Positions 13,816 to 15,500 of a stretch of DNA of 43,376 bases are shown in pieces. The position numbers and the translations under genes were made by a program. Position 1 is the first letter of the stretch; the number at the start of each line of letters is the position of its first letter. Source of the stretch: Archaeoglobus sp. (GTDB taxonomy: Archaea; Halobacteriota; Archaeoglobi; Archaeoglobales; Archaeoglobaceae); contig NZ_JACDNT010000015.1 in assembly GCF_017656475.1 (NCBI RefSeq), positions 1 through 43,376 on the forward strand, in the 5' to 3' direction. The notes beneath the pieces were generated by a model that worked only from the letters and a program-made list of their open reading frames with translations, was not told the DNA's origin and did not search any database.

Positions 13816-14289
13816 ATGGCACTGATTCCAAAAGAGGTCTTCTTCGTTTCAGGGATAGGCAGGCATGAGGACGCATTAGTTAGCTTCGAACTGGCATTGA
13901 GGGATGCTGGAATAGAGAGATTCAACCTCGTTCCAGTGAGCAGCATCGTCCCACCAAACTGCAGAGTTGTCAGCAAGGAAGAGGGACTGAAGAAGCTGAG
14001 CCCCGGAGAGATCGTCTTTTGCGTTATGGCGAGGCACACAAGCAATGATGAGGGAGCTGAGATTTTTGCCAGCGTCGGAGCGGCATTTCCTGAAGACGAT
14101 AATTTAAACGGATACATAGCGGAGCACAGCGGAGTGTGGTATGAGGGGGCAGAGAAGCATGCCAAAAAGCTTGCTGAGGAGATGCTGAAAACACAGGGAG
14201 GCAAGGTGGCAAGAACATTCGGAATAACTGCAAGAGGAAGGGTTGAAAAATTTACAACAGCCGTTGCTGCTGCTGTTTTTGTTATTTAA
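13816..14289 (+). CDS. pdaD: Pyruvoyl-dependent arginine decarboxylase
   Basis: The enzyme decarboxylates arginine to agmatine for archaeal polyamine synthesis. The 157-aa proenzyme shows the self-cleavage site in VPVSSIVPPNC: cutting between Ser42 and Ser43 gives the beta chain and an alpha chain starting with the pyruvoyl group. Other family marks are SGIGRHEDALVSFELAL, FCVMARHTSNDEG, and the C-terminal FTTAVAAAVFVI. Length is normal. The message is probably leaderless. The stop overlaps the convergent phosphoesterase gene by 4 bp. Confidence 0.92.
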   Translation: MALIPKEVFFVSGIGRHEDALVSFELALRDAGIERFNLVPVSSIVPPNCRVVSKEEGLKKLSPGEIVFCVMARHTSNDEGAEIFASVGAAFPEDDNLNGYIAEHSGVWYEGAEKHAKKLAEEMLKTQGGKVARTFGITARGRVEKFTTAVAAAVFVI

Positions 14290-15404
14290 GCCAGAAGTCT
14301 CCTCACAAGCTCCTCAACTCTTCTCCATATTTCGCTCCTGACCTCCTTGTAGTCTTCCGTAGTTGAGGGTTTCCTGACATCCCAGTACTCTCCAATTCCA
14401 AGCTCGTCAAATTCTATGATAACATCAAAGTCGTCAGCCATTTCCTTGCTGAACATTCTCGGCTTACCATTGATTTTGAGTCCAAGCTCCCTCATTGCCG
14501 CAACCGCTCTCAAGTCTAAGTCCTCAGCAGGCTCGATTCCAGCACTGACTGCAAGCATGTTGTTCGGGGAGAGGTAGTTGAATATCGCTTCAGCCATTTT
14601 CGTTCTGCAGTCGTTGTTTCTGGAAAGGAACAGCACCTTCTTTGGCTTAGCTATTCTGTGGTAAATGTCGACAGACTCCGGCGTTTCGGGGTTGATTGTG
14701 TATCTTCCAATCTCCACTTCTCCGTAATCTACGAACCTCAGCTTAAGGGTTAGCGTGTTGTCCTTGAGTTCTATGACGTTGTAGTTTTGATCCGGCATGC
14801 CGAGAACCTTGAAAGAGCCGAGAGTGCCTGCATGGAGTATGTGCGTCCTCATAAGCCTGATGGAGTAGGGCATGTGCCTGTGACCTGCAAGCACAGCACT
14901 GATGCCATTCGCAATTAAAAGCTCGACCATCTCTCCCGCATCGATGAGGACGTTTCTCTCCCTGCCCGTCTTCGGGATTGGAACTATGTGGTGGTGCAAA
15001 GCAAGAATGTTGAACCTGTCCCTTTTGACCTTGCTCACAATCCAGTCCCTCTGCTCCTTTCCGATGTATCCGTCATCCAGATCGGGCTGGGTGCTATCGG
15101 CAGCTATTAACGCCACGACGTCGTTCTTCCAGTACTTTTTGGTCTCTCCAAAGTAAAGCTGGAAGAACTCGTAACCTATGTTCCTGGCATCGTGGTTTCC
15201 AGGAACTGCGATAAAATCAGGCTTCAGGTCAAGCAGTGTTTCGTAGGCATCCCTCATCTCGGAATGGATTCCCCAGCAGGAGAGGTCACCGGTGATTATG
15301 ACGATATCAGGTTCAATCTCGTTAATCTGCCTCACGGCCTTTTCGACCTTTTCCCTTATCAGCTCCTCACCAAAATGAAGGTCTGAGATGTGAACGATTT
15401 TCAT
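14286..15404 (-). CDS. Metallophosphoesterase fused to a low-molecular-weight phosphatase-like domain lacking its catalytic Cys
   Basis: Residues 1-250 form a calcineurin-like phosphoesterase with every metal-site motif: SDLHFG (Asp8, His10), TGDLS (Asp40), GNHDAR (70-75), LALHHHIVP and AGHRHMP. Residues 255-372 resemble the arsenate reductase/low-molecular-weight tyrosine phosphatase fold: VLFLSRNNDCRTKMAEAIF. In that P-loop the nucleophilic Cys of C-x5-R is Ser261, while Cys266 and Arg267 remain, and the acid loop survives as EYWDVRKPS. The second domain is therefore probably a binding or structural part rather than an enzyme. The 372-aa start at the MKIVHISD methionine fits the phosphoesterase family and the A/T box near 15430-15440; the frame is open to 15470. 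Class III phosphodiesterase-like function is possible, with substrate unknown. Confidence 0.85.
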   Translation of the reverse strand: MKIVHISDLHFGEELIREKVEKAVRQINEIEPDIVIITGDLSCWGIHSEMRDAYETLLDLKPDFIAVPGNHDARNIGYEFFQLYFGETKKYWKNDVVALIAADSTQPDLDDGYIGKEQRDWIVSKVKRDRFNILALHHHIVPIPKTGRERNVLIDAGEMVELLIANGISAVLAGHRHMPYSIRLMRTHILHAGTLGSFKVLGMPDQNYNVIELKDNTLTLKLRFVDYGEVEIGRYTINPETPESVDIYHRIAKPKKVLFLSRNNDCRTKMAEAIFNYLSPNNMLAVSAGIEPAEDLDLRAVAAMRELGLKINGKPRMFSKEMADDFDVIIEFDELGIGEYWDVRKPSTTEDYKEVRSEIWRRVEELVRRLLA

Positions 15405-15500
15405 GTTATTCTGGTTATATTCTCTGGATTTAAATTTAAGGTTGATGCTGTCACTTAGGAAAGTTGCCAAAAACGATAATGTGGAAGCTAAAATAAAAAA

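Follow-up and report, generated by a model that had tools for sequence, protein, structure and literature searches.

Introduction

What becomes of a phosphatase-like domain that has lost its nucleophile, and why should an archaeon keep such a domain in frame behind a metallophosphoesterase (MPE)? The question is raised by a gene on the minus strand at positions 14286–15404 of the stretch of Archaeoglobus DNA analysed here (43,376 nucleotides, hereafter called the window). Pseudophosphatases are mostly familiar from the eukaryotic PTP/DSP fold. Judged by its sequence, the C-terminal half of this protein is a pseudophosphatase that occurs naturally, is conserved, has the ArsC/LMW fold of arsenate reductases and LMW phosphatases, and is fused to a putative metal phosphodiesterase. 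We know of no sensor that couples the phosphate supply of archaea to the turnover of their internal phosphodiesters. The fused protein would be a concrete candidate for such a coupling because both of its halves have relatives in phosphate-uptake (pst) operons. A literature search that left most subscription journals outside its reach found no paper joining an MPE-LMW phosphatase fusion, an archaeal pseudophosphatase and the pst context.

Results

Gene structure and immediate surroundings

According to the open reading frame, its translation and Pfam, the gene encodes 372 amino acids (ATG at 15404, stop codon at 14286–14288). Pfam places Metallophos at residues 1–179 (74 bits; curated cut-off 21.5) and LMWPc at residues 257–334 (50.1 bits; curated cut-off 23.2). 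Three parts can be delimited, all on the minus strand. A class III MPE domain with a complete metal site, defined by Pfam, alignment and solved relatives, comprises residues 1–225 (14730–15404). It is followed by a linker of residues 226–252 (14649–14729), in which G228, E229, G233 and Y248 are invariant in the alignment of 15 fused sequences. Residues 253–372 (14289–14648) form a domain of the ArsC/LMW-phosphatase fold devoid of the catalytic residues, as indicated by Pfam LMWPc, the match to 1Y1L and Foldseek.

Here and in related proteins, the MPE fold opens with its first strand right at the ATG. As this leaves no space for an N-terminal signal ahead of the strand, the fused enzyme is most likely cytoplasmic. 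An alternative, longer frame starting with TTG extends to 15470. The gap of 96 nt between the gene and its upstream neighbour contains an A/T-rich, TATA-like stretch read from the sequence (CTTAAATTTAAAT; 15428–15440, minus strand; 24–36 nt upstream of the ATG), which suggests that the gene has a promoter of its own. At the other end, a gene for a pyruvoyl-dependent arginine decarboxylase (13816–14289) is convergent with the fused gene and overlaps it by 4 bases at the stop-codon end. A conserved operon, which we looked for around the fused gene, is ruled out by flanks that differ from genus to genus.

The metallophosphoesterase half

The metal site, described as complete in the original prediction, is complete throughout. 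Its motif residues D8, H10, D40, N70, H71, H137-H139, H175 and H177 are invariant in 15 of 15 fused proteins and in 56 of 56 stand-alone relatives. A calcineurin-like fold is thereby combined with the D-x-H / GD / GNH / H / GHxH metal motifs of class III enzymes. The best solved relative of this half is the glycerophosphodiesterase GpdQ (PDB 2ZO9/2DXL/3D03; E 8.1e-11), closely followed by Rv0805 (2HYP; E 1.2e-10). Both share the class III phosphodiesterase metal motifs with the MPE half. The matches cover only residues 1–146 and 4–182, respectively, and none of them involves an LMW/ArsC part of these chains. These likenesses point to a metal-dependent phosphodiesterase of the GpdQ/Rv0805 type.

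Stand-alone MPE orthologues of about 250 amino acids, 35–45% identical to the MPE half, occur in many families of the phylum. The sample used for comparison consists of 56 loci extracted by tblastn, with second copies and fragments set aside. Four positions that are fixed or nearly so in this sample (R88 in 55 of 56; H113, R116 and W182 in 56 of 56 each) are relaxed in the fused MPEs, where they are found in 3, 2, 1 and 0 of 15 proteins, respectively. These positions may belong to a surface now covered by the new domain, or may reflect a change of substrate.

Loss of catalytic residues in the C-terminal half

The P-loop of the C-terminal half (V-L-F-L-S-R-N-N-D-C-R-T) does read S261-R-N-N-D-C-R267, with Ser at the position of the catalytic Cys, as had been claimed. 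On the minus strand, the Ser261 codon, TCC, lies at 14622–14624 and the codon of Arg267, the phosphate-binding Arg of the P-loop, at 14604–14606; both assignments follow from the alignments, the former from that of fused copies with paralogues. A search for proteins of the same domain order was made in 55 genomes of the window's family, which we take as Archaeoglobaceae, and 17 of them have the fusion. Ser occupies the nucleophile position in all 19 fused copies read from these 17 genomes, namely 15 aligned proteins, the fragments of G002 and G064, and the second copies of G017 and G019, which are broken. Fused orthologues that keep Cys, the finding that would have reduced the case to a local mutation, were absent among these copies. 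A strain-specific mutation or a sequencing error at Ser261 is thus excluded.

The codons of Ser261 are TCC, TCG or TCA in 17 copies and AGC in two (genus g11). To pass between TCN and AGC takes two base changes, and hence Ser was either kept by selection or arose from Cys twice. By either route, the mixed codons speak for Ser being favoured at position 261.

Further columns were counted in the 15 aligned fused proteins, leaving aside the two fragments and both broken copies. Arg267 is retained in 14 of them, the exception being G009, and Asn264 in 12. Arg or Lys stands at position 262 in 13 of the 15 fused proteins but in 6 of 27 Cys-bearing stand-alone paralogues. The latter set comprises 26 of the 31 longer matches from the family (those of G010, G021, G060, G062 and G065 were left out) and G362 from outside the family. 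All 27 have the nucleophile Cys under a row selection that allowed Cys or Ser only, and all 27 have the P-loop Arg by construction, as the selecting pattern required it.

The general acid has been lost as well. By alignment, the position of the general-acid Asp in the DP-loop corresponds to Lys345 (codon at 14370–14372, minus strand). This column holds nine residue types and no Asp in the 15 fused proteins; G009 has an Asp one column beyond, where the alignment is unsure. Among the 27 stand-alone paralogues, 22 have Asp in the acid column, four have Asn and one has Cys. Trp341 (15/15) and Pro346 (14/15), which flank the drifted column, are conserved in the fused proteins. At the positions placed from pI258 ArsC, which we take to be those of the resolving cysteines of arsenate reductases, none of the 15 aligned fused proteins has a Cys at either site, and they show a deletion of the loop. 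A resolving-type Cys pair is found in 18 of the 27 stand-alone paralogues by a strict pattern and in six more by eye.

With the resolving cysteines and the Asp lost in addition to the nucleophile, the C-terminal domain is, by prediction, dead on more counts than originally claimed. Since all three are missing, activity as a phosphatase or as an arsenate reductase by known mechanisms is excluded. Cys266 is excluded as a substitute nucleophile, because it is replaced by Ala in G017 and G027 and by Leu in G009. It appears that catalysis was let go while the phosphate cradle of the P-loop (Ser261, Arg267, Asn264 and Arg/Lys262) was largely kept. The protein of G009 (L012:212-1246) goes further: its dead domain is eroded, the P-loop has lost the Arg and one residue, and a stretch of the domain is gone; its MPE half is intact. 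The cradle therefore seems to be dispensable in at least this lineage.

Structure prediction, which had been proposed as a check, served for one half of the protein and failed for the whole. The full-length AlphaFold model, built from five sequences, is poor (mean pLDDT 52.8) and unusable for domain docking. The model of the C-terminal half alone is modest (pLDDT 64.6), and it matches the ArsC/LMW fold: 1Y1L heads the Foldseek matches (E 1.3e-6, TM 0.72), followed by ArsC and LMW phosphatases. The LMW-PTP fold of this half is thus supported by Pfam LMWPc together with Foldseek on a modest model.

1Y1L, an 'arsenate reductase' of A. fulgidus, is the best solved relative of the C-terminal half also in a search with a ten-row profile (E 2.1e-22). 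It comes from the same archaeal family and shares with the fused domain the fold, the P-loop length and the Arg. In 1Y1L the catalytic Cys is present together with a Cys pair of the resolving type, and Asn occupies the acid position, whereas the fused domain has Ser at the nucleophile position, none of these Cys/Asn features and a loop deletion. Unlike the fused gene, the gene of 1Y1L stands alone within a pst operon, and the product of the pst-linked LMW gene of G004 is identical to 1Y1L over the residues shown. The Foldseek list of the C-terminal model also includes YwlE C7S (PDB 4KK4) and pI258 ArsC C10S/C15A (PDB 1JF8), which carry the same Cys-to-Ser change in the same P-loop. These are engineered variants of active stand-alone enzymes, whereas the substitution described here is natural, and the fused domain, unlike them, also lacks the Asp and the resolving cysteines. 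Eukaryotic proteins of the PTP/DSP fold, the STYX-type pseudophosphatases, likewise have the nucleophile of their CX5R P-loop replaced. In contrast to these, the fused domain has the LMW/ArsC fold, is archaeal and is attached to a putative metal phosphodiesterase.

Distribution, origin and selection

The 17 genomes with the fusion belong to 7 of 13 genera (G000, which is the window genome, G003-G007, G009, G011, G017, G019, G027, G060, G063, G065, G066, G002 with a fragment at a contig end, and G064 with a copy split across two contigs). The window genome and G003 are 96.5% and 99% complete. A profile of the 15 long fused proteins found matches in 97 of 392 genomes of the phylum, with at most five candidates scored per genome; among the matches listed, those spanning both halves come only from the window's family. 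A scan for close relatives in 84,980 species genomes returned four loci, all from Archaeoglobi. The named relatives of the fused protein are records of 'Archaeoglobi archaeon' or 'Archaeoglobus sp.' with 98–77% identity. These names, and the presence of the A. fulgidus protein 1Y1L among the gene products of G004, are our grounds for taking the family as Archaeoglobaceae.

In the tree of C-terminal domains, a single branch sets the fused ones apart from the rest (16 rows including a broken copy; support 100/99), and the same holds for the fused MPE halves in their tree (15 rows; support 100/100). Both trees are consistent with a single origin of the fusion; they conflict over the placement of G011. 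A mobile origin was considered and dropped. None of the 34 plasmid records that match the fused protein covers 80% of the query, the eight plasmid matches listed concern the MPE half only (26–32% identity), and a phage search with the fused protein gave a single weak match.

The view that the dead domain is kept in frame gained support from the pattern of substitution. Of the aligned proteins, 14 from 6 genera are full-length and have an intact frame. Among ten pairs compared for dN/dS (Nei-Gojobori, own script), three allowed an estimate for both halves; in the others, synonymous sites of at least one half were saturated. The three estimates are 0.100, 0.049 and 0.058 for the dead half and 0.034, 0.023 and 0.022 for the MPE half. 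In one of the other pairs, G000-G027, the dead half gave 0.26, with dS near saturation. Purifying selection thus acts on the dead half, though two to three times more loosely than on the MPE half. Loss of the nucleophile and a fold kept under selection, two marks of a STYX-like pseudophosphatase, are both found in the C-terminal half.

Two genomes contain a second, broken copy of the fused gene (L031:1001-2166 and L032:1083-2250). That of G017 has an in-frame TGA at Trp44, that of G019 has frameshifts and stops, and the Ser is kept in both.

Relation to phosphate-uptake operons

A Pst gene on the same strand is present in 32 of the 56 loci of stand-alone MPEs, within 400 nt in 30 of them. Outside family f5 the proportion is 32 of 37. 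Family f5, whose genomes measure about 3–6 Mb, showed same-strand pst linkage of the MPE in 0 of 19 loci; at its locus L140, a pst operon is present on the strand opposite the MPE. A frequent gene order is PstS-MPE-PstC-PstA-PstB-PhoU. Several families have the MPE orthologue between pstS and pstC (L092:5921-10587; also L091, L102, L118, L124, L125 and others). The neighbours were identified by Pfam in the reference loci L092 and L102 and by tblastn to these in the others. We found no paper on a metallophosphoesterase inside pst operons in the literature searched, most subscription journals being outside it, and the presence of this gene in the pst operons of several families of the phylum should be of use on its own.

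The relatives of the other half show a similar association. The Cys-bearing stand-alone LMW/ArsC paralogue adjoins PstB and/or PhoU in 16 of 27 family loci, as tallied by hand over the loci of the 26 aligned family rows and that of the G002 fragment. The order is PstB-ArsC-PhoU or PstB-PhoU-ArsC. Examples of an arsenate-reductase-like gene inside a pst-phoU operon are L154:3024-6482, L160:2696-7090, L161, L162 and others. The transporter that this gene adjoins could be the one by which arsenate enters.

The fused gene itself had no pst genes beside it at any locus examined, although contig ends truncate several of these loci. With a relaxed limit, the broken copy of G019 has a short and weak PstS-like match (39% identical) next to it on the other strand. 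PstC (E<=1e-20) was not found in 8 of the 17 carriers, among them the window genome and the near-complete G003; of these eight, G002 and G009 are only 79–81% complete. G000, G003 and G005 gave no LMWPc match (E<=1e-6) besides the fused domain. Since PstC was not found at this limit in carriers including G000 and G003, the fused protein appears to function without Pst in these species. Together with the lack of pst neighbours at the loci examined, this indicates that the link of the fused gene to the phosphate regulon is at best one of descent. Relatives of two pst-operon genes would have been joined at an unlinked place, and the second one disarmed.

Discussion

The reading that we prefer, and to which we give an even chance, is that of a cytoplasmic GpdQ-like phosphodiesterase that is tuned by a dead, oxyanion-binding P-loop domain. 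Its phosphodiesterase activity, phosphate binding, regulation and substrate are all inferred. The ancestor of the fused enzyme would have belonged to the phosphate (Pst-PhoU) regulon of archaea. The P-loop of the C-terminal half would act as an oxyanion cradle without catalysis, able to bind inorganic phosphate, arsenate or a phosphate group carried by a substrate, a product or a partner. The occupied cradle would adjust the MPE to the phosphate supply, for example through product inhibition when phosphate is plentiful. In such a scheme the MPE would free phosphate from internal diesters, and the phosphate-binding domain would restrain it. For Archaeoglobus, diglycerol phosphate is a plausible substrate candidate; this phosphodiester solute is chemically a glycerophosphodiester. 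Archaeoglobus fulgidus stores the compound as its major osmolyte at 76°C (PMC1224877). Glycerophosphoglycerol is cleaved by glycerophosphodiesterases (PMC4926365). The sensing or phospho-ligand-binding role originally suggested for the dead domain is supported in part, by the loss of the catalytic residues, the retention in frame under purifying selection and the conserved cradle; the connection of both halves with the phosphate-uptake operon is an addition to that suggestion. Several results weigh against our reading: the Arg is lost in G009, eight carriers show no PstC at the limit used, no pst gene adjoins the fused gene at the loci examined, the dead half evolves faster than the MPE half, and the f5 orthologues show no same-strand pst linkage.

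Unlikely, though it accounts for several of our observations, is a purely structural role, in which the dead domain packs on the MPE or mediates dimer formation, with a fossil P-loop that has no relevant ligand. G009 does retain a shortened domain that has no P-loop Arg, and most invariant residues are located outside the active site (L258, A271, E272, F275, N276, P280, N282, M283, E339, W341 and L366). The relaxation of R88, H113, R116 and W182 is likewise expected if the second domain takes over part of an MPE surface. However, Ser261 is fixed even though its codons are of both the TCN and the AGC type, and Arg267 persists in 14 of 15 proteins while the Asp column drifts. Retention of the cradle under these circumstances argues against a pure fossil, which should lose the cradle also.

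Alternatively, the domain might be an adaptor that binds a phosphorylated protein or small molecule in the manner of STYX and delivers the substrate to the MPE. Natural substitution of the P-loop Cys, as seen here, is the recognition mark of STYX-type pseudophosphatases (PMC2175518). Against this role, which we regard as improbable, conserved neighbours point to no partner, and the flanks of the fused gene are not the same among genera.

We give slightly less credence again to a phosphoserine switch, in which Ser261 becomes phosphorylated in the P-loop and so turns the MPE on or off for long periods. A Ser ester would hydrolyse slowly there and the general acid is gone, so that the phosphate would be held as a memory responding to the phosphate or arsenate supply. 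The title of PDB entry 4KK4, 'YwlE arginine phosphatase - C7S mutant with phosphorylated active site serine', implies that an LMW phosphatase with a Cys-to-Ser change is capable of carrying phosphoserine. The strictness of the Ser, for which no other replacement residue occurs in the copies read, and the absence of the hydrolysis-assisting Asp from the 15 aligned fused proteins would fit such a memory. Without the Asp, however, attack on poor leaving groups would be hampered as well, and G009 lacks Arg267. If true, a phosphate memory of this kind would amount to a self-contained phosphate sensor, put together from relatives of two phosphate-uptake operon genes.

Slow decay of a formerly active fusion that is losing its C-terminal domain, as the broken second copies in G017 and G019 and the eroded domain of G009 might suggest, is very improbable and already largely refuted by purifying selection (dN/dS 0.05–0.10 in the estimable pairs) and by the intact frame across six genera.

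Participation of the fused enzyme in the cyclic 2,3-diphosphoglycerate pathway is not likely, since a link to 2-phosphoglycerate kinase was seen only in f2, a family of the same order, and the kinase was found in 0 of 55 genomes of the window's family (E<=1e-20). At both f2 loci (L089:6084-7792 and L093:5865-7531), the MPE abuts the gene for this kinase, whose match is above the curated cut-off. 2-Phosphoglycerate kinase catalyses the first step in the synthesis of cyclic 2,3-diphosphoglycerate (PMC12136491), and the f2 MPE could be a hydrolase of that pathway.
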